A stretch of DNA of 46,077 bases, from positions 1-46,077 of IMG/VR virus record IMGVR_UViG_3300025886_000051; one strand, 5' to 3'. Source of the DNA: a virus. Under the pieces are notes generated by a model. It made no database searches and was not told the origin of the DNA. It was given only the letters and a program-made list of their open reading frames with translations. A program made the position numbers and the translations under genes. Shown piece by piece: positions 858 through 31,560 of this stretch. Numbering within the stretch: the first letter of the stretch is position 1; every line of letters begins with the position of its first letter.

Positions 858-2717
858 ATGAGTAAGAAATTTACATTAAACCAGCTAACCGAGGGCATCC
901 GCTCTCGTAACGTTGGACAGCAAGGTGCTCGCCTTACTGAGAAGTGGTCACGTACCGGTCTTCTCCGTGGGCTCGAGAACACTAACCGCGAGAACATGGC
1001 TATGATGCTTGAAAATCAGGCAGCACAGCTTCTTCGTGAGAGCAACACCATGGGATCAGGCGCAGTTGGTGGTTTCACTAACATCGCATTCCCAATCGTC
1101 CGTCGTGTATTCGGTGGACTAGTTGCTAACGAACTAGTATCAATCCAGCCAATGAGCCTACCTTCAGGTCTGCTCTTCTATCTCGATTACACCTATGGTA
1201 CCGACGTAGGCAATGCTTACGGCGCCGGAGAGTCAATCTACGGTAGCGGAAGTGGACGTAGCCTACAGTCAGGTGCAGATGCAGCCGGTGGTCAGTACGA
1301 CCTCGTAGGCTCAGGATTCTCAGCTGGTGCTTGGGGTTCAGATACTAACGTTGCAAATATTAATGCTGGTCAGCTCTGGTTCGACAACAACGGCGTCGCC
1401 GACGGAACCGGCACCACCGCAGCAGCCTTAGCAGCTCAGGCAACATTTGCCCAGGCCATATCAGGATTCGACCCACTTGTTGGTGATGGTACTGGTTGGG
1501 AAGTAGTCGTTAGAACAGTTCCTACTGTTGCTGATCGTTCTTCTGTAAAGTCATGGGCAATATCCTCTACAGTCATCGGTGCAGATCGCGTAGCTGCTTC
1601 AGTACAGTCAGGCGACCTCTCCGGCGGCGCTGCCGGAAACGGTTCATACAACCTACGTCGCTGTAATGTTGTTGGTAACTGGGTCCTCGGTGGCACCTCA
1701 GCCATAGGTACATTCGTAGCTGACCCATTGGCCGGTACACACGTTCTAATGCTAGTTCAGAGAACAGTAGCAGCCGTACCTGTCACTCCAGATACACACA
1801 CACTTAACTACCCACTCGCTGACACACTCGCTGCTGATGCAGCTGGTGGACTCGGTGAGCTAGACGGTTCCCCTGCATTCGAAGGTAACATGGATGGAAC
1901 AGTCGGCGCTGCTGGAACTGATACGATCCCTGAGATCGACATCAAGATTGAGTCAATTGCTGTTACAGCTCAGACTCGTAAGCTCCGTGCTCGTTGGTCC
2001 CCAGAGCTCGCTCAAGACCTCAACGCATACCACTCAATGGACGCTGAAGTAGAACTTACTCAGATCCTATCCGAGCAGGTTGCACTTGAGATCGACCGTG
2101 AGATTCTTAACGACCTACTAGTTGGCGCCAATGGTGCAAACCTCTACTGGTCACGTGCTCCTGGTCGCTTCTTGAACAAGAACACCGGTGCTACAGTTGA
2201 CGTAGGCGAATCCAGTGCTGCTTACGAAGGACTAGCCTTCACAGGTACAGTTCGTGAGTGGTACGAGACATTGACTGAGACAATCATCGACGTTGCTAAC
2301 CAGATCCACCGTAAGACTTTACGCGGTTCTGCTAACTTCATCGTAGTTGGCCCTGATGTTGCTACTATCCTTGAGTCCGGTGTCATGTACAAGCCTAATT
2401 ACAAGCTTGACGGACAGGGCCAGGTCGGTTCATCATTCTCAATCGGTGCCGAGAAGGTTGGCGCTCTTTCTAACAGATTCACTGTTTACAAAGATCCTTA
2501 CTTCCCACGCAACAAGATTCTTGTTGGATTCAAGGGTGGATCATACCTTGAGACTGGTTACGTTTACGCTCCGTACGTTCCTCTCATCGTTACTCCTACC
2601 ATCTTCCAGCCCGACGATTTCACACCTCGCAAGGGTGTAATGACTCGCTACGGCAAGAAAATGGTTCGTTCCGACTTTTACGGAACAGTAACTATTCTTG
2701 ACATGCACATTATCTAA
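858..2717 (+). CDS. gp23: Major capsid protein, gp23-like
   Basis: This 619-residue protein forms the hexameric lattice of the head. The N-terminus (LTEGIRSR..., then GGFTNIAFPIVRRVFGGLVANELVSIQP, quoted here in pieces) and the later block around IAVTAQTRKLRARW, with an ELTQILSEQVALEIDREIL helix, match T4 gp23-type capsid proteins. A Gly/Ala-rich stretch from about residue 125 to 360 looks like a variable surface insertion. Residues 59-61 (LRE, just before SNTMGSG) fit the L/I-x-E rule of the T4 prohead protease and sit close to the T4 cleavage point at residue 65, so removal of a roughly 61-residue propeptide is inferred. The start has an AAGGA ribosome site at 842-846. Codons are richer in C and G at third positions than in neighbouring genes, as expected for a very highly expressed protein. 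A strong terminator follows. Confidence 0.93.
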   Translation: MSKKFTLNQLTEGIRSRNVGQQGARLTEKWSRTGLLRGLENTNRENMAMMLENQAAQLLRESNTMGSGAVGGFTNIAFPIVRRVFGGLVANELVSIQPMSLPSGLLFYLDYTYGTDVGNAYGAGESIYGSGSGRSLQSGADAAGGQYDLVGSGFSAGAWGSDTNVANINAGQLWFDNNGVADGTGTTAAALAAQATFAQAISGFDPLVGDGTGWEVVVRTVPTVADRSSVKSWAISSTVIGADRVAASVQSGDLSGGAAGNGSYNLRRCNVVGNWVLGGTSAIGTFVADPLAGTHVLMLVQRTVAAVPVTPDTHTLNYPLADTLAADAAGGLGELDGSPAFEGNMDGTVGAAGTDTIPEIDIKIESIAVTAQTRKLRARWSPELAQDLNAYHSMDAEVELTQILSEQVALEIDREILNDLLVGANGANLYWSRAPGRFLNKNTGATVDVGESSAAYEGLAFTGTVREWYETLTETIIDVANQIHRKTLRGSANFIVVGPDVATILESGVMYKPNYKLDGQGQVGSSFSIGAEKVGALSNRFTVYKDPYFPRNKILVGFKGGSYLETGYVYAPYVPLIVTPTIFQPDDFTPRKGVMTRYGKKMVRSDFYGTVTILDMHII

Positions 2718-2778
2718 ATCTAGCTTAGATAATCAATACTTGGGAGCTGCCTTTACGGGTGGCTCCCATTTTTTTTGT
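2701..2778 (+). repeat. 78-bp direct repeat, copy 1 (capsid gene tail plus terminator)
   Basis: This copy contains the last codons of the capsid gene (DMHII-stop), the short palindrome TATCTAAATCTAGCTTAGATA and the terminator. It matches 4284-4361 at 77 of 78 positions; the only difference is G2762 against A4345. The two copies bracket the homing endonuclease gene. Confidence 0.95.
2741..2777 (+). terminator. Rho-independent terminator of the capsid gene
   Basis: The arms TGGGAGC (2741-2747) and GCTCCCA (2762-2768) pair perfectly. The stem extends inward by four more pairs, including two G-U, around a six-base loop. Eight T residues follow. It lies 24 bases after the capsid stop codon. Confidence 0.92.
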
Positions 2779-2828
2779 TTCAAGGTAAAGAAATAAACAT
2801 ATATATCATAAAAGGGTATAATGACAGT

Positions 2829-4247
2829 ATGATATGTGAAATATGTAACTATGAATCAACCGGAAAAGATTTTTCAAACCACTTACAGCGTGAGCATAAG
2901 CTAAGCTCAAAAGAATATACTATTAAGAACATCTATAAAAAGCAACCAATGTGTGAACACTGTGGAAACGAAACAAGGTATGTGGCATACAAGTTCAAAA
3001 GATTCTGCAAAGATTGCTCAAAGATAGCATCTTCAGTAGCTGGCAAAGAAGGTGGTAAGGCTACAGCTTGGAATAAAGGACTTACAAAAGAGACAGATGA
3101 ACGAGTTAAAAAACAAGCAGAGAATAATACAGGTGAAGGTAATCCATTTTATGGAAAACGTCATACACTGAACTCACGCCAGCAAATGAGTAAAACAAAG
3201 ACGCTCGACAGAATAAAATTTCAACAGCGAATAAGCGATAGAGCAAATGACTTTGAGTTGCTCACAAGTTTTGACGATTATTTTTCAAGGCAAGAACAGT
3301 ATTTAGAGTTCAAATGCAAAAAATGTGAAACAACGTCTAAAAAAACTCTTCAAACATTTGAAAGAGGATCATTGTGTCAAGTATGTTTTCCAAACAATAT
3401 ATCACAATTTGAGAATGAAATTGCAGCATTTATTGAAAGTGAAAATGTAGAATACGATACAAAAGTCAGATATGCTATTTCGCCAAAAGAATTAGATGTT
3501 TATGTACCCACAAAACAAGTTGCAATAGAGGCTAACGGACTATATTGGCATTCTGATAATAACAGAGTAGAAGAGTATGATAAAAGAAAACATATCAATA
3601 AAACAAAACTCTGCCTCGAAAACGATATATCTCTAATCCACATATTCAGTGATGAATGGTATAATAAAAAAGACATTTGTAAGTCATTAATATCATATAG
3701 AATAGGGACAGCAAAAAACAGAATATTCGCAAGAAAATGCAAGATATCAAAAATAACAAAACAAGAGGAAAAAGAGTTCTTTGAGAAAAACCATATCACA
3801 GGATTCACACCGTCGAAAGAATGTTTTGCACTAAAATATAATGAAGAGATAGTAGCGGCGCTTTCAGTACGCTCACCAAGACAGCAGAAATACAAGAGTA
3901 TGCTCGAAATAGCTAGATTCGCTACATTGAGAGATACAGCTGTAGTAGGAGGACTAAGCAGATTATTCTCTTGTGCAGAGTGTTTTGCAATAGAAAACAA
4001 TTACTCTGGGATCATGACGTACGCAGATAGACGTTTTGGTGAAGGAAAAGGGTACGAAAAAATTGGACTAACGTACGAAGGATCGACAGGAATAGACTAT
4101 TGGTATACAGACGGAAAAGTTAGAATAAATCGTTTTATTATGAGAACAACAAAAAATGAAACTGAGAAACAAAAAGCGTATAAAAACAACTTAATGAAGA
4201 TCCATGGTTGTGGCAGTAACATTTTCACTAAATATTTTAGTCAATAA
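2829..4247 (+). CDS. Homing endonuclease, Vsr/PD-(D/E)xK-like with zinc fingers and NUMOD3
   Basis: The ATG at 2829 gives 472 residues; an ATG at 2775 in the same frame lies in the upstream terminator and is unlikely. In order the protein shows a C2H2-type finger (C3, C6, H18, H23), a second cysteine set (C42, C45, C60, C63), a NUMOD3-like DNA-binding motif near 104-127 (GNPFYGKRHT), a third cysteine set (C163, C166, C183, C186), and a Vsr-like nuclease core near 192-285 with ELDVYVP and VAIEANGLYWH. The long C-terminal region (FARKC..., GGLSRLF, YADRRFGEGKGY) is typical of Hef-like free-standing phage endonucleases. Such enzymes cut related phage genomes near the insertion site so that the gene is copied in. 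A CATAAA at 2807 and TATAAT at 2817-2822 lie just upstream, with no good Shine-Dalgarno site. The gene is AT-rich compared with the capsid gene. Confidence 0.85.
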   Translation: MICEICNYESTGKDFSNHLQREHKLSSKEYTIKNIYKKQPMCEHCGNETRYVAYKFKRFCKDCSKIASSVAGKEGGKATAWNKGLTKETDERVKKQAENNTGEGNPFYGKRHTLNSRQQMSKTKTLDRIKFQQRISDRANDFELLTSFDDYFSRQEQYLEFKCKKCETTSKKTLQTFERGSLCQVCFPNNISQFENEIAAFIESENVEYDTKVRYAISPKELDVYVPTKQVAIEANGLYWHSDNNRVEEYDKRKHINKTKLCLENDISLIHIFSDEWYNKKDICKSLISYRIGTAKNRIFARKCKISKITKQEEKEFFEKNHITGFTPSKECFALKYNEEIVAALSVRSPRQQKYKSMLEIARFATLRDTAVVGGLSRLFSCAECFAIENNYSGIMTYADRRFGEGKGYEKIGLTYEGSTGIDYWYTDGKVRINRFIMRTTKNETEKQKAYKNNLMKIHGCGSNIFTKYFSQ

Positions 4248-4283
4248 TCGAGTGTCTGTAGCATAAATCATATTACTTTTGTT

Positions 4284-4361
4284 ACATGCACATTATCTAA
4301 ATCTAGCTTAGATAATCAATACTTGGGAGCTGCCTTTACGGGTGACTCCCATTTTTTTTGT
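4284..4361 (+). repeat. 78-bp direct repeat, copy 2
   Basis: This is a second copy of the capsid gene tail and terminator, placed 37 bases after the endonuclease stop codon. It is not part of any gene here. It differs from copy 1 by one base (A at 4345). Confidence 0.95.
4324..4360 (+). terminator. Duplicated terminator after the homing endonuclease
   Basis: The hairpin and T-run are the same as in the capsid terminator. The G-to-A change at 4345 turns one C-G stem pair into a C-A mismatch, leaving an outer stem of six pairs and four inner pairs. It probably still works but more weakly. Confidence 0.75.
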
Positions 4362-4366
4362 CTAAA

Positions 4367-4501
4367 ATGTCTTTCAATAATAGAGTAGAGGCATTTATAA
4401 AATATAATAAAAAAAATCAAGTATATGAAGTCTCTAAGAAATATATAATAAATGTAGATCGTGTCTTAACAAGACATTTCATAATCGTGAAGGCGATATA
4501 G
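4367..4501 (+). CDS. Possible small protein (44 aa)
   Basis: This reading frame of 44 codons (begins MSFNNRVEAF) fills most of the otherwise empty stretch between the duplicated terminator and the next gene. It is basic and rich in Lys, Ile and Val. There is no clear Shine-Dalgarno site and no recognised family. The first bases resemble the start of the neck gene at 5064 (ATGTCTTT-AA), which may be chance. The rest of 4502-4565 holds no gene that I can see. Confidence 0.22.
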   Translation: MSFNNRVEAFIKYNKKNQVYEVSKKYIINVDRVLTRHFIIVKAI

Positions 4502-4565
4502 AAAATATCACAAGTTCAGTTAATTTTAGATAAGACAAGAAACATAAACGAACTATACTAAAATA

Positions 4566-4835
4566 ATGAATTTATTTGATTTTTATTCACGCAAATTTGA
4601 ACAAGGAGAGCTTGTAGCAGTATTTAAAAATGCTAATAGACTCATAGGGTACGGCGTATTAATCGCACAGGTCGCACACACTAGTTCACAAACAAACAAA
4701 CAAGTTTCAAAAACTCTTTTGTCTGACTGGTCGTCAGGTCTTGAAAATTCTGCGTGGACAACATATATCAACAATAAACTGGTTATTGTAAATGAGTTCG
4801 ACATGGAGAAGTTAGAATGTCAACAGGACAATTAG
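4566..4835 (+). CDS. Small protein, possible SH3-like fold (89 aa)
   Basis: I recognise no named family. The start MNLFDFYSRK is followed by FEQGELVAVF and later YGVLIAQV and LVIVNEFDME, a pattern of short beta strands. The next gene (4817) repeats the same pattern (GQLVMVA, YGVIVQV, ILTGADI), so the two look like paralogues. There is no Shine-Dalgarno site; a TATACT at 4554-4559 lies only six bases before the ATG. The last 19 bases overlap the following gene, suggesting coupled translation. Small proteins of this sort sit between capsid and neck genes in several large phages, but their role is unknown. Confidence 0.6.
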   Translation: MNLFDFYSRKFEQGELVAVFKNANRLIGYGVLIAQVAHTSSQTNKQVSKTLLSDWSSGLENSAWTTYINNKLVIVNEFDMEKLECQQDN

Positions 4836-5063: not shown

Positions 5064-6335
5064 ATGTCTTTTAACCCAGCAAACAACCCAACACCCTTTG
5101 GCGTATTTGACGACGATGCAGAATTTCAAGTAGAAGCTGACAACATGATCACATTCGTCAAACGTAAATTAGGCGATGACATACTCAGTGTTGAACTTAC
5201 ACAAAAACAAATATGGGGTAACCTCGAAGAGTCACTTTTTGAATATGGCAGTATTTTAAATCAATATCAGGCAAAATCACAGCTCATGGAGTTCATGGGT
5301 ATGCCTACTAAAAAGCAGTCTGTAGATGATGCAGGCGATCTGCTTTATAAAAATAGCACAACTGGCGTCATATCAACAGATGACACAGGAGATCCTGTAT
5401 ATGATGATCATGCAAACAAGTTCCCACGTAGCAATCTAGAATACTTAACCAGATTCGCTGAGCCATATGCATCAGAGGCCGGAATAGGTGGCTCATACGA
5501 TGTAATATCAGGTTCTATAACACTGGTTGTTGGAAAGCAAGACTACAATCTGAATGTAGACCTACTCGGTACAGAAACAGATGGAGCGGGCGATCTTATT
5601 CCACTTTTCGACGGAAGTCAAAATAAAAACCCAAAAACACGTCTAAAAATAAATGAAGTGTTTCACTATTCTCCTCAGGCAGCATACAGATTCTTCGATA
5701 CAACATCAGCAGTCAACTACTTGAACAACGAAATGAGCTTTGAGTCGTTCACACCGGAAACAATCTTCTATGTTTTGCCTGTTTTCGAAGATATCTTAAG
5801 AGCATCTCAATTAGACCTTTCAAACAGAGTAAGACGTTCAAACTACTCATACAAAGTTCAAGGAACTAATCTACGAATATACCCATCACCAACTTCGGAA
5901 AGTGCACAGAAGATCTTCGTAAGTGTAAGGACATTTAATAACCCAATTGACACTGGTCATACAGACGAGACAATTGACGGCGTGTCTAGTTTAGGGAATA
6001 TACCCTTTGGAAACATTCAGTTCTCAAAAATAAATTCTATGGGACATCAGTGGGTCAGACAAATGTGCCTCGCATTGTCAAGAGAGCAGCTCGGATTAAT
6101 TCGTTCAAAGTTCTCTAAAATACCAATTCCTGGTCAAGATTTAACGCTAAACGGTACAGAATTAGTAACACAAGGAAGAGAAGACAAAAAAGAATTAATA
6201 ACTCAACTAAAAGAAATGCTCGACAGTATGACATACGACAAACTTATAGAGACACAGGCTCTAAGAGCAGAGAACATGCAAAAACAGTTGAAGTTCATAC
6301 CAATGCCAAACGGCAAAGCCGTTTTCATGGGATAA
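5064..6335 (+). CDS. Neck protein, possibly gp13-like (423 aa)
   Basis: The gene has a good ribosome site (TAGGA) and is the first of the neck block. The N-terminal block ADNMITFVKRKLGDDILSVE, followed by LTQKQIWGNLEESLFEYGS and MEFMGMPT, recalls neck or head-to-tail connector proteins of marine T4-like phages. A central insertion of about residues 85-180 is acidic and Gly-rich. The C-terminal part has a long helix near LKEMLDSMTYDKLIETQALR. In T4, gp13 and gp14 close the filled head and form the platform for the tail. The gp13 call rests mainly on order (before the gp14-like and gp15-like genes) and could be a different connector. Confidence 0.55.
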   Translation: MSFNPANNPTPFGVFDDDAEFQVEADNMITFVKRKLGDDILSVELTQKQIWGNLEESLFEYGSILNQYQAKSQLMEFMGMPTKKQSVDDAGDLLYKNSTTGVISTDDTGDPVYDDHANKFPRSNLEYLTRFAEPYASEAGIGGSYDVISGSITLVVGKQDYNLNVDLLGTETDGAGDLIPLFDGSQNKNPKTRLKINEVFHYSPQAAYRFFDTTSAVNYLNNEMSFESFTPETIFYVLPVFEDILRASQLDLSNRVRRSNYSYKVQGTNLRIYPSPTSESAQKIFVSVRTFNNPIDTGHTDETIDGVSSLGNIPFGNIQFSKINSMGHQWVRQMCLALSREQLGLIRSKFSKIPIPGQDLTLNGTELVTQGREDKKELITQLKEMLDSMTYDKLIETQALRAENMQKQLKFIPMPNGKAVFMG

Positions 6336-27078: not shown

Positions 27079-27677
27079 CACAGCACTTGCACGACATCGA
27101 TACAATTACAAACAATTACGCACTTTTTCTAAAGATGTGTTCAAAGTTAGGAGACCGATCTGCACCAGTAGTGGCAATGGTTGAACATATGAACGAGAGG
27201 CTTCTAATGGCCCCTGCTTCTACGAAACTATCATACCATTGTGCACACCCAGGGGGTCTAGTAGAACACTCTCTTAACGTTCTGCGCAATTTAAAAAAAT
27301 TAATAAAAGTATATGAAGTAGATGTTCCTGTAGAGTCAATGATTATCGCATCACTATTTCATGATTGGGGAAAAGTCGGTGATCTAGAAGAGGCTTACTA
27401 CATAGAACAGGACAGCGACTGGCATCGTGAAAAGTTAGGTCAAATGTACAAAGTAAACGAAGACATGCAGTCAATGCCAAATGCCGAGAGAGGACTCTGG
27501 TTATTACAGCATTTCGGAGTGCAGTTAACGCTTGACGAATGGATCGCAATACGTACAAACGACGGTCCTGGTGTTCCAGAGAACAAGGCGTATTTCGGTG
27601 GAGAGCCTACTTTGGCTCTTTTATTACAGCACGCTGATCAAATGGCAACAAAACAAGAAAAAGAGCGCTACTCGTAA
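27075..27677 (+). CDS. HD-domain phosphohydrolase (200 aa)
   Basis: The motif AHPGGLVEHSLNVLRNL supplies a conserved His, and IIASLFHDWGKVG supplies the HD pair. A later His (RGLWLLQHF) and the closing LLQHADQMA complete the usual metal-binding set of HD enzymes. The arrangement resembles the HD part of YhaM-type 3'-5' exonucleases and related nucleotidases more than RelA-type synthetases. The substrate cannot be told from the sequence; a nucleotide or a nucleic acid 3' end are both possible. It overlaps the polymerase gene by four bases, so a role in DNA synthesis, for example as a proof-reading or dNTP-handling partner, is a reasonable guess. Confidence 0.75.
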   Translation: MTQHLHDIDTITNNYALFLKMCSKLGDRSAPVVAMVEHMNERLLMAPASTKLSYHCAHPGGLVEHSLNVLRNLKKLIKVYEVDVPVESMIIASLFHDWGKVGDLEEAYYIEQDSDWHREKLGQMYKVNEDMQSMPNAERGLWLLQHFGVQLTLDEWIAIRTNDGPGVPENKAYFGGEPTLALLLQHADQMATKQEKERYS

Positions 27678-27691
27678 TATTTATATGTATG
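27650..27691 (+). repeat. Direct repeat, copy 1 (HD gene tail plus start of next gene)
   Basis: These 42 bases hold the last codons of the HD gene (KQEKERYS-stop), the 11-base spacer and the ATG of the next gene. They are identical to 30145-30186. Similarity continues through the coding sequence of the two following genes for over 100 bases. Confidence 0.95.
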
Positions 27692-30004
27692 TCTAAGCAA
27701 CTAAACAAAAGAGGACTTCCGTCTGTAGGCGGAGTCTTATTGAACGGTCACTCACAATCTGCTGTTAGTGGGTTCTCTTCTAAACTAGGACGCAAACCAA
27801 TGCCAGAAAGAAAACTGACAACAGATATTGATCAACTTATAGAAGACAATGAAAGGTTTAATGAATTTTTAAGTCTTAACTCTGTCATTAAAAGTCCAGG
27901 TAGTGCAGACACATCTGAATCACAGTTAAGGTCTGTTATTAGAGAGACTATTTTAAAAGAAATCTTAAAAGAGCAGACCGCCTCGAGCTTGACAATTAAG
28001 CTTCTAGTGTCAGACATCATGAACGATCCACAAAAATACCTCTCATCTGAACAAAGTAATCTTGAAACAATTACTTGGAAGGGAAAAGAATATGTGGCAC
28101 TAGGTTTTCTTAAAAAAGGAAACCCAGTTGTTTTAATCACAAAGACAGATTTAAAACCACAAGATATATCTACTTCAGGATCATTTCAGCTTCCAGACAA
28201 AGATAGCGTTTTACTTACAAACGCCGGCGATGATCAAAATTTTAACTTAAAAAATCTTAGAGATGGAAATGTTGTCCCTGTCTACGTTCGTGACAGCGCA
28301 AAAGATGTCACGCTAAACATTACTAAAGTAGACTACGGCGAACCAAGCATAGCTGATTGGGCTATCGAAGTAGGATCTTATATTGGTATGGTACCTGGTG
28401 TTGGAACGCCTGTAGATTTAGCTTCTGCTGTCCTTGCTGTAATCAAAGATCCACCCGACTATTTATTAGGCGCCCTTTGCGTGCTTTGTTCAGCGCCTGT
28501 TTTAGGGTTAGTTGCAGGTGCAGCAAAGATTGTAGGAAAAGGTATTATTAAAAAAGGTGCTACTGCAATTGGAAGAGAAGTCTCAGATGAAGCGATAGAA
28601 AAGGCCGCAGAGGCTTTAGTAAATTATCTAAAATCAATAGACGCTGAAATATCAGAGAAAGTCTTCGGCGCGCTAAGAAAACAGCTTGACGGCACACTTG
28701 AATATCTTGAAAAGCAGATGAAAAAATTCGCTCAAGATCAGGACCTTTTTGGGTTGTGTGCACTGACAGAGCAGAAAGGGCTAGCTGGTTGCGCTAGTTC
28801 AGTTTCAGAAGCGACAAGGCGATTTGAAAACCTAGCAAATCCCTTAAAGAGGCTTTATGATTCAGTTCTTGCAGAACTAGAGCTTCAAGAGATGACAAAA
28901 GGATGGGACTCCAGCGCTATAACAAATCTTTCATATGCAAGAAGATTAGCAGATTCAGCGGGTGAAAAAGCCAGGAGAGAGGCAAAAACAAAATTTCAGA
29001 GGACAGTATACGGAAATCCTGCAGCTAAAAAATTCTTCACGGAAGATGTAGTGTACGTTCACGTTGTAGGTGCCTATCGCGCTGGCCGAGGAACTTCAAG
29101 AAAAAGCGTGTCAAATTTTAGTTTTTTAGACTGGCTTTCGACAAACCCGGGTGCTACAACTAGAGCATCTAACGAAATATCTACTTTTGGAATTCACAAA
29201 GATGACTTTGCTGATGCAGTTAGCAGCGGCGTACTGAAGGGCAAGAATTTTTATGTCCTCGAGGGTAGGTTAACTTACTTCTCTCCCTCTGACGCTGCAA
29301 CTGAACTTACAGGAACAGCATCAGCTCAGACAAAGAAGCACTACGCACAGAGCGGCACAAGAAAGAAACCTTTTTTACCGAAAGACGTGTCCGAATTAGT
29401 CGTTGATGAAAAGTCTTTTCGAGCACGTAACTATACCGCAGAAGCAATTTTAGGTAATTGGAAAATAAAATCTTATCATGGCGGATCCAAATGGGGCAAC
29501 TTACCAGATCCAGTGAAAGAACTCAAAAAAATAGATTTTAGCTCTGCTCTCGAAATTGTTTCAAATTTAAAAAAGACTCTAAAGTCTGGTTTACCACCTA
29601 GTAAAGATGTACTTATAAAGCTTGACAATATTGTCAATCAATTGAGTTCGCGGGCCACACCTCAATCACCTGTTTTAATAAATGACATGAAAAAATTAAG
29701 CAAAACTCTCGAAGACAGTTCAGAAATTCCAGCTCGTGTCTTATTAGACGGTGAGATGATTGACTTAAGAAAGTTAATGCCAGATTTTACAGAAATTAAT
29801 AACTTTATAAAAGAAGCAAGATCGATGATTTCATCATTACGACTGCCACCGGTCCCTGGCTCACCTGCAGGAACAAAGGGTTCGATAGACCTACGCCAGA
29901 ACGCTGACATAGTACTACAAACATCTTCCAGCAGCAGCGCGAAAGACTTTACATTGAAGGATTGGGTATCTCGATTCGCCGATAATTTAGAAAAAATCAA
30001 ATAA
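27689..30004 (+). CDS. Large protein with shared N-terminal module, type 1 (771 aa)
   Basis: Residues 1-66 (GLPSVGGV, GHSQSAVSGFSSKLGR, KPMPERKLTTDIDQLIEDNE) are nearly the same as in the 458-residue protein at 30184, while the rest differs. A motif LRSVIRETILKEIL follows at 80-93. Residues 227-291 are hydrophobic and Gly-rich (MVPGVGTPVDLASAVLAVIK, LLGALCVLCSAPVLGLVAG) and may insert in a membrane. A compact part near 445-600 has VVYVHVVGAYRAGRGTSRKS, VLEGRLTYFSPSDAA and ELVVDEKSFRARNYTAEAIL; I recall similar blocks in virion proteins of large phages but cannot name the family. No Shine-Dalgarno site is present. A virion-carried effector is one reading. Confidence 0.6.
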   Translation: MSKQLNKRGLPSVGGVLLNGHSQSAVSGFSSKLGRKPMPERKLTTDIDQLIEDNERFNEFLSLNSVIKSPGSADTSESQLRSVIRETILKEILKEQTASSLTIKLLVSDIMNDPQKYLSSEQSNLETITWKGKEYVALGFLKKGNPVVLITKTDLKPQDISTSGSFQLPDKDSVLLTNAGDDQNFNLKNLRDGNVVPVYVRDSAKDVTLNITKVDYGEPSIADWAIEVGSYIGMVPGVGTPVDLASAVLAVIKDPPDYLLGALCVLCSAPVLGLVAGAAKIVGKGIIKKGATAIGREVSDEAIEKAAEALVNYLKSIDAEISEKVFGALRKQLDGTLEYLEKQMKKFAQDQDLFGLCALTEQKGLAGCASSVSEATRRFENLANPLKRLYDSVLAELELQEMTKGWDSSAITNLSYARRLADSAGEKARREAKTKFQRTVYGNPAAKKFFTEDVVYVHVVGAYRAGRGTSRKSVSNFSFLDWLSTNPGATTRASNEISTFGIHKDDFADAVSSGVLKGKNFYVLEGRLTYFSPSDAATELTGTASAQTKKHYAQSGTRKKPFLPKDVSELVVDEKSFRARNYTAEAILGNWKIKSYHGGSKWGNLPDPVKELKKIDFSSALEIVSNLKKTLKSGLPPSKDVLIKLDNIVNQLSSRATPQSPVLINDMKKLSKTLEDSSEIPARVLLDGEMIDLRKLMPDFTEINNFIKEARSMISSLRLPPVPGSPAGTKGSIDLRQNADIVLQTSSSSSAKDFTLKDWVSRFADNLEKIK

Positions 30005-30077: not shown

Positions 30078-30143
30078 GTGAGCATATTTGATATTAAACC
30101 ACCAACTCGTTTTGCAAGTTCATGTGGGCACACAAACATGTAA
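30078..30143 (+). pseudogene. Truncated gene start (21 codons) at a duplication junction
   Basis: A GTG with an AGGAG site four bases upstream opens a frame MSIFDIKPPTRFASSCGHTN-M that stops after 21 codons, two bases before the repeat copy at 30145. The promoter, ribosome site and start look real, but the body is gone. It may be the front of a gene cut off when the HD-gene tail and the next gene were copied in. A short functional peptide cannot be excluded. Confidence 0.4.
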
Positions 30144-30144
30144 T

Positions 30145-30186
30145 AAAACAAGAAAAAGAGCGCTACTCGTAATATTTATATGTATG
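30145..30186 (+). repeat. Direct repeat, copy 2 (orphan HD gene tail)
   Basis: A perfect copy of 27650-27691 at an offset of 2495 bases. Here the HD gene's last eight codons and stop have no gene body in front of them, which shows the direction of copying: from the HD/771 junction to this site. Confidence 0.95.
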
Positions 30187-31560
30187 ACTAAGAAACTAAA
30201 TGAAAGAGGACTTCCTTCTGTAGGCGGGGTCTCACCAGGTGACTCATCCAATAACCTCGGACAAGCACGCAGACCCTGGAACTTAACAGGTTCATCAGGT
30301 GGTCACTCACAATCTGCTGATAGTGGGTTCTCTTCTAAATTAGGACGTGTAAACAAAGGTCGTGATGACGACAAATATGCGTGGCAAGTAAGGTTCCCTG
30401 AAAACGAAGAAGAACCCGAAGAAGATACATATAATATGAAATTAAGATCAAAAATATCAATTGATCTTAGAGGACGTAAACCAATGCCAGAAAGAAAACT
30501 AACAACAGATATTGATCAACTTATAGAAGAAAACGAAAAGTTCAATGAGTTTTTAAATCTTAACACTGTCAGTGAGAGATCAGACGGGAACACAAGCAGA
30601 GGCTTCTTGGGTCATGTAGTCGACGATGCATTTGATACCGTTGTCGATATGGCTGGCGACACTGCCCGCCAGTTTGTTGGCACAGTTATTCCTGGAGCCG
30701 CTGATTTTTTATTCGTTTTAAAAAATATAAAAGAATTGCAGAATAATTCAGAGGCTGGAAAAGAATTAATAAGTCTATATAATGAACAAGGTTCATACAA
30801 GAGATTAGGAGGGTCATATCTTAATGAAATAGATGATGTTATTGACAATATTGTTACTGATTTATCTGACGTCATAGAAGCTTTTGTTTCAATAATTCCT
30901 GCGGGTGGAGATGTCGCAGGTTATATCGCAACATTGACATCGTGGGCTGCAAAAATAAAAAAGACTTTAGATCCCTTGTTGAAACAGGCTTCTAGAGTCC
31001 CAGGGGCTAAAACAAAGATGGGGAAAGAATTGACACTCAGATTAGCTGGGAATGTCGCTTTACGATCTGCAATATTCGAATTAGATGAAAAGTTTGATGA
31101 AGAAACTCCATTCTGGGGTTCTATAATAGACTCAGTAAAAGTTGCTGGAACCTTGTCAGATATTGTTAGTAACTTTGATGAACTATATAAAATGTCTGAT
31201 GATGGGTATGAAAAAATGTCATCTACTGAAAAATTAGCATTGATACGAAAAGCAAATAAATTAAAAAGACTAATCAGTATACCAGTAAGTATAGATGATA
31301 TAGACTCATCTGTTTATGGCTTCGAAGAATTACATGATGAGACAGACATATCTGAATCAAAAATAAGAAGCTTAATATCACAAATTCTATTAGAGTCTGA
31401 AGAACTAATCGATGAAGACCTTGTCGAGGCTGAATATGCCGACGAAGTAGAAGAAGCAAGTGGCGTCGGATCTATCGGTGGATACGCCGGACCGATGGCT
31501 TCCCCTGCAAATCAAGAAGAATTTAATAAAAAAATGCAAAAGGTATCTTTTCCAGATTGA
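30184..31560 (+). CDS. Protein with shared N-terminal module, type 2 (458 aa)
   Basis: The start at 30184 is fixed by its match to the 771-residue paralogue. The shared module is split by two insertions (about 17-39 and 56-97) and ends near residue 129 with KPMPERKLTTDIDQLIEENE. The body differs from the 771-residue protein but also has hydrophobic Gly/Pro-rich segments (VGTVIPGAADFLFVLK, IIPAGGDVAGYIATLTSWAA). Near the C-terminus, at about 390-405, lies ESKIRSLISQILLESEE, a motif like LRSVIRETILKEIL of the paralogue. It ends in an acidic and Gly-rich tail. No Shine-Dalgarno site is visible. Function unknown. Secretion or virion targeting through the common module is an inference. Confidence 0.6.
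   Translation: MTKKLNERGLPSVGGVSPGDSSNNLGQARRPWNLTGSSGGHSQSADSGFSSKLGRVNKGRDDDKYAWQVRFPENEEEPEEDTYNMKLRSKISIDLRGRKPMPERKLTTDIDQLIEENEKFNEFLNLNTVSERSDGNTSRGFLGHVVDDAFDTVVDMAGDTARQFVGTVIPGAADFLFVLKNIKELQNNSEAGKELISLYNEQGSYKRLGGSYLNEIDDVIDNIVTDLSDVIEAFVSIIPAGGDVAGYIATLTSWAAKIKKTLDPLLKQASRVPGAKTKMGKELTLRLAGNVALRSAIFELDEKFDEETPFWGSIIDSVKVAGTLSDIVSNFDELYKMSDDGYEKMSSTEKLALIRKANKLKRLISIPVSIDDIDSSVYGFEELHDETDISESKIRSLISQILLESEELIDEDLVEAEYADEVEEASGVGSIGGYAGPMASPANQEEFNKKMQKVSFPD

Follow-up and report, generated by a model that had tools for sequence, protein, structure and literature searches.

Two kinds of described systems are closest to the locus analysed here. The first one is the free-standing homing endonucleases (HEGs) of T4-type phages (intronless homing; Hef, Seg, Mob), where an intergenic nuclease ORF lies beside a conserved essential gene, with segD of T4, for example, being located between genes 23 and 24 (PMC2988022). 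For these HEGs the cleavage and insertion sites lie apart and the resection must reach the homology that flanks the HEG (PMC2988022). The second one is the mobile ORFs with carboxy-terminal duplication in fungal mitochondria, found in atp6 of Allomyces and in atp6, atp9, cox2 and nad3 of Glomus, where the order is gene, inserted tail, endonuclease and native tail, and where the inserted tail is of foreign origin and differs clearly, with 64-81% identity to the relative (PMC3630166). In the open-access literature that we examined, no description was found of a phage gene-tail duplication around a homing endonuclease.

The window, namely the whole stretch of 46,077 bases that was analysed, is a T4-like phage contig from a virus record. 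Its nuclease gene, like the T4-type free-standing HEGs, is an intergenic ORF beside a conserved essential gene (gp23), is present in some relatives and absent from others and bears signs of transfer with the flanking gene; unlike them, as searched in the literature, it has the target tail and terminator duplicated. A relative is also located between the capsid and vertex genes in Providencia phage PSTCR6. As in the fungal mobile ORFs, the endonuclease is followed by a second 3' end of the host gene, both in the window and in two other phage sequences described below (L147 and L222), and also, with another nuclease, in a third one (L080). By contrast with the fungal cases, the phage copies are 95-99% identical and include the terminator, and other genomes and other nuclease families are involved. 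The window locus thus works like the fungal tail-duplicating ORFs and gives a phage parallel to those mitochondrial inserts, and it is not classed as one of them because the foreign, more divergent inserted tail is not seen, its two copies being of one lineage.

The repeat search of the window gives one direct repeat with a spacing of 1583 at this place (Table 1), where 77 of the 78 positions are identical, as was claimed in the original prediction and far above chance, and where the sole mismatch is G2762 in copy 1 versus A4345 in copy 2. The pair brackets the intact Hef-like gene directly 3' of gp23, and from the repeat, the ORF and the profile matches it is also borne out that the endonuclease gene stands between two capsid-tail and terminator copies with the end of gp23 intact. 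Copy 1 comprises the 17 nt at the end of gp23 (ACATGCACATTATCTAA), a hairpin spanning the stop codon and an intrinsic terminator. No third copy is present in the window, and a dispersed mobile element carrying the terminator was ruled out as there are just these two copies. As had also been predicted, the one difference weakens the distal stem: A4345 breaks one C:G pair, with the predicted energy of the terminator being changed from −21.1 to −14.4 kcal/mol. Because four relatives (L002, L003, L084 and L102) have G at this position, the change probably arose in copy 2, as judged from this comparison. Copy 1 differs from L002 and L003 at about 6 sites, and all of the lineage-specific changes are common to both copies of the window.

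Table 1. Features of the gp23-HEG locus in the window (positions of the window; all on the strand given).
Feature	Position	Strand	Basis
gp23 major capsid protein gene, 619 aa	858..2717	+	PF07068 1.6e-76; phrog_138 3.2e-72
Copy 1: last 17 nt of gp23 with stop, hairpin, terminator	2701..2778	+	repeat search
9-bp hairpin over the gp23 stop codon	2709..2733	+	fold −5.7 kcal/mol; also in L002, L003
Intrinsic terminator of copy 1 with T run	2741..2776	+	fold −21.1 kcal/mol
HEG leader with conserved element before ATG	2784..2828	+	homologue comparison
Hef-like free-standing homing endonuclease (HEG), 472 aa	2829..4247	+	profile and fold matches
36-nt spacer, HEG stop to copy 2	4248..4283	+	weak likeness to L100/L102 HEG-sulfotransferase spacer
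Copy 2: gp23 tail, hairpin, terminator; stem weakened by A4345	4284..4361	+	repeat search, fold
orfX remnant, 5' part missing, frameshifted	4352..4563	+	78-85% DNA identity to relatives; joined at T run
Small 89-aa ORF (orf89), conserved in lineage	4566..4835	+	synteny with relatives
Head-tail adaptor-like (gp13 position) gene, right anchor of locus	5064..6335	+	phrog_211 9.7e-10; synteny

The start of the HEG is taken as the ATG at 2829, with the TTG at 2775 giving an upstream extension that is absent from the aligned homologues. Directly before this ATG there is an element, aaaGGGTATAATGACagt-ATG (AAGGGTATAATGAC-like; window 2810-2828), which is conserved in many homologues and is a candidate promoter −10 or ribosome-binding sequence. 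The protein matches NUMOD3 (above cutoff), MTES_1575 (below cutoff) and the PHROG homing endonuclease family phrog_3339 (8e-77), and it is laid out as an N-terminal zinc-finger-like part, NUMOD3, a Vsr/EDxHD-like nuclease and a C-terminal GNAT/Mom-like domain. Within the family, the nuclease domain has a match to 3r3p ('Mobile intron protein', E = 0.0012), which is I-Bth0305I, an EDxHD mobile intron nuclease; unlike the latter, the window HEG is without an intron and has extra N- and C-terminal domains. For the C-terminal domain (residues ~300-470), Foldseek on a structure model with a mean pLDDT of 76 gives Mom of phage Mu (8bv8, E 4.9e-6) as the best PDB match, and Pfam Mom is above cutoff in homologues (9.6e-13 in L089 and 1e-7 in L147). 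By its predicted fold, the nuclease family is thus fused to a candidate Mom-like DNA-modification domain, which is like Mu Mom in its Mom/GNAT fold and unlike it in the fusion to a nuclease, with the modification being putative. Nothing relevant on a homing endonuclease with a Mom/GNAT domain was found in the open-access literature.

By its sequence, with cleavage being predicted, the HEG belongs with the free-standing homing endonucleases of T4-type phages: it has the phrog_3339, NUMOD3 and 3r3p matches, it lies between gp23 and the gp13-side genes, gp23 loci occur with and without it, and HEG and gp23 tail are less diverged than the neighbouring genes. Among the relatives, gp23 is at most 2.5 kb upstream at 60 of the 117 places where the HEG occurs.

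The relatives come from scans in which gp23, the gp13-like protein and the HEG were looked for. The L084 locus reads gp23, terminator, HEG, sulfotransferase-like gene, small ORFs, orfX, orf89 and gp13, with one copy of the terminator. L102 has the same order and one copy, with a second nuclease gene in addition and with the HEG shortened to a 135-aa remnant, while L098 and L100 begin inside the HEG and then follow an L084-like order with two extra genes before orfX. Among the relatives whose downstream sequence is visible, a single copy beside the HEG, or beside what is left of it, is thus seen at this site in L084 and L102, and also in L003, which ends soon after its HEG remnant and has its right side partly seen; the sequence of L002 ends inside the HEG. 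In the HEG-free L020, L033 and L054, gp23 and the terminator are followed directly by the sulfotransferase-like gene. Since L084 and L102 have a single copy although this site is occupied by the HEG or its remnant, and since the HEG-free sites are continuous, the HEG entered after the terminator with no duplication needed. The original prediction of an insertion with duplication is thus kept in part: a non-homologous joining is likely, while the insertion of the HEG itself makes no duplication. Among the fetched relatives, no close one was found that lacks the HEG and has precisely the one-copy site gp23-terminator-orfX'.

It is also noted that an identical internal deletion of the HEG is present in three phages (L003 7857-8264, L102 3345-3752 and the start of L100), leaving in L003 and L102 a 135-aa zinc-finger/NUMOD3 protein with no nuclease, while of L100 only the junction is seen. 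Between the gp23 terminator and the HEG there is often a second nuclease gene, which is TnsA-like (L102 2387-3313; L069, L076, L138, L187, L252), and this spot is therefore a stacking site for nuclease genes. Among 54 distinct gp23 loci that were chosen regardless of nucleases, an HEG or TnsA-like nuclease starts within 500 nt after gp23 in 17. The sulfotransferase-like gene is a common neighbour 3' of gp23 (L084 2085-2879, L098, L100, L102, L020, L033, L054) and is missing from the corresponding place in the window.

Copy 2 marks a recombination border, as seen from the sequence comparisons, because the capsid tail and the nuclease are similar to one phage group and the genes to the right of copy 2 to another. 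Between the window and L084, the differences at four-fold sites are 0.15-0.33 in the gp23 3' end and the main parts of the HEG (the last 27 HEG codons have just 4 four-fold sites) versus 0.51-0.68 in the downstream genes. The downstream genes of the window are closest to those of L098 and L097 (0.27-0.48), while the HEG fragment of L098 is only ~40-41% identical to the window HEG. To the right of the HEG, the window has the 36-nt spacer, copy 2 and then orfX sequence from the T run (TTTTTTTTGTCTAAAATGTC versus TTTTTTTAGACAAAATGTC in L098); the 5' part of orfX is lost and the remainder is frameshifted, while orfX is intact in relatives, with 94 aa in L098. The cargo genes of relatives, 1.1-2.5 kb, are missing and copy 2 occupies their place. 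The event that gave rise to the extra copy also removed or bypassed this cargo and truncated orfX. For the 36-nt spacer no match was found elsewhere in the window or in the loci of relatives, and its weak likeness to the HEG-sulfotransferase spacer of L100 and L102 is equalled by 72/2000 and 27/2000 shuffles. Dating of the event from the divergence of the copies versus the frameshifts of orfX was dropped, the changes being too few.

The duplication of tail plus terminator occurs in 3 of 124 distinct gp23 tails (116 of which have at least 500 nt downstream), each time around a nuclease gene. In L147, whose HEG is 45% identical to that of the window, the repeat is 75 bp at 96% and starts at GACA(T/A)G, within the Asp-Met codons of gp23 where the window's repeat also begins, the two starts being one base apart when counted from the gp23 stop; both copies are also carried by L222, which has a different metagenome ID. 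In L080 the repeat of 88 bp (95.5%) surrounds a TnsA-like nuclease of a family different from the HEG and starts 11 nt before the gp23 end, this start being offset by ~7 nt in the 3' direction from those in the window and L147. The distance from the nuclease stop to copy 2 is ~10-48 nt in all three cases, and copy 2 ends at the terminator end. The HEG tree, where L002 is labelled one-copy although its right side lies outside the sequence seen, calls for two gains, one in the lineage of the window and one in that of L147. An ancestral duplication common to both was rejected, since the tree forces two gains and the downstream contexts differ, and repeats in L071, L008, L159 and L166 are not gp23-tail duplications. 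The two independent recurrences (L147/L222 and L080) strengthen the link to nuclease acquisition. What gives the recurrence weight is that the nucleases are bracketed so precisely and that the left edge is shared, and not the contrast of 3/57 nuclease-bearing tails (with enough downstream) versus 0/35 nuclease-free ones, which is not significant (Fisher p = 0.29). The result that would have contradicted the prediction, both copies with no nuclease, is absent from the 35 nuclease-free tails, which have at least 2.2 kb downstream.

These cases also bear on three other explanations. That the repeats come from assembly is very improbable: all sequences are metagenomic contigs, and a second IMG/VR contig (3300001349_000065), which over 14,332 bases has just 5 differences from the window, all in the first 202 bases, may be of the same population or sample; however, this contig has both copies with both alleles of the mismatch, L147 and L222, with different metagenome IDs, agree with each other, and the spacers and right flanks are distinct in three lineages. 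A transposition with a long target-site duplication would also put direct repeats on both sides of the insert, and we give it hardly any weight, because the repeat lengths vary (75, 78, 88) with edges following gene features, the insertion site is common to one-copy relatives, and no terminal inverted repeats or transposase are present; a transposon was therefore rejected. Lastly, a second terminator could have been recruited by selection, insulating the HEG transcript from the downstream structural genes, with the mechanism of its arrival being incidental. The position of copy 2 close after the nuclease in all three cases and the terminators of copy 2 that fold intact in L147 and L080 are consistent with this; yet copy 2 of the window is weakened, in most of the HEG relatives no repeat follows the HEG, and the gp23 codons would not be kept by selection, making this explanation improbable.

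We propose that the duplicated tail is a scar of imprecise homing repair, with a cut near the gp23 end, copying on the left and end-joining on the right, and we give this a probability of about 0.5. Based on this model, the HEG resident 3' of gp23 would cut gp23 alleles that lack the HEG, close to their last codons (around GAC ATG, Leu-Asp-Met), with the terminator lying between the presumed cut and the HEG. The left end would be repaired from the HEG-bearing phage, copying the gp23 tail, the terminator and the HEG. With a donor and a recipient that share no homology to the right of the HEG, the right end, unresected past its own tail and terminator, would be joined without homology just after the HEG. 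The outcome would be gp23, copied tail and terminator, HEG, a short spacer, the recipient's own tail and terminator and then the downstream genes. It would thereby be explained why copy 2 begins in the last gp23 codons and stops with the terminator, why the filler is short and why the downstream genes differ. The window case would additionally need a recipient in which the stretch between terminator and orfX was already deleted, or else another jump at the T run. In favour of the model are the one-copy HEG relatives and the HEG-free sites, the recombination border, the recurrences in L147/L222 and L080 with copy 2 close behind the nuclease stop, and the distance between cleavage and insertion sites in free-standing HEGs; these, like the repeat and the cargo loss, are observed, whereas the cut position, the choice of copy 2 as the native one, the end-joining and the deleted recipient are proposed.

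Counting against homing repair, both copies of the window share the lineage-specific changes, the start in L080 is offset, few of the nuclease-bearing tails have the duplication, and among the relatives no HEG-free recipient allele was found. Since the copies are nearly identical, donor and recipient would have to match almost fully in this stretch, unless copy 1 served as the template of copy 2. The main rival is template switching or a microhomology rearrangement in a single HEG-bearing phage, where synthesis would run off the end of the HEG, switch back to the gp23 tail in that genome or in a sister one, copy the terminator and then jump at the T run into orfX with deletion of the cargo, and where the nuclease supplies breaks or nothing. 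It accounts for the near-identity of the copies equally well, it puts this identity, the cargo loss and the T-run junction in one event, and the nearest visible HEG relative, L084, has one copy plus the cargo. By contrast, two illegitimate jumps would be required per event, and neither the near-equal left edges in two independent lineages nor the recurrent place right after the nuclease stop is explained by it; we thus consider it possible and less probable than homing repair.

If imprecise homing repair is the origin, cut positions could be predicted at the sequence level for uncharacterised capsid-linked homing nucleases, and homing could add terminators and remodel the gene block 3' of gp23. 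More tentatively, and rather doubtful at present, the left edges of copy 2 may be footprints of capsid-cutting homing enzymes, with abortive homing repeatedly duplicating tail and terminator and building nuclease cassettes that are insulated by terminators, and the fused Mom-like domain may protect the target of the carrier.

Finally, we note that elsewhere in the window the neighbouring ORFs 27689-30004 and 30088-31560 share stretches with 88-96% identity that include their starts (27647-27899 / 30142-30583), which, judged from this identity, is a recent partial gene duplication.
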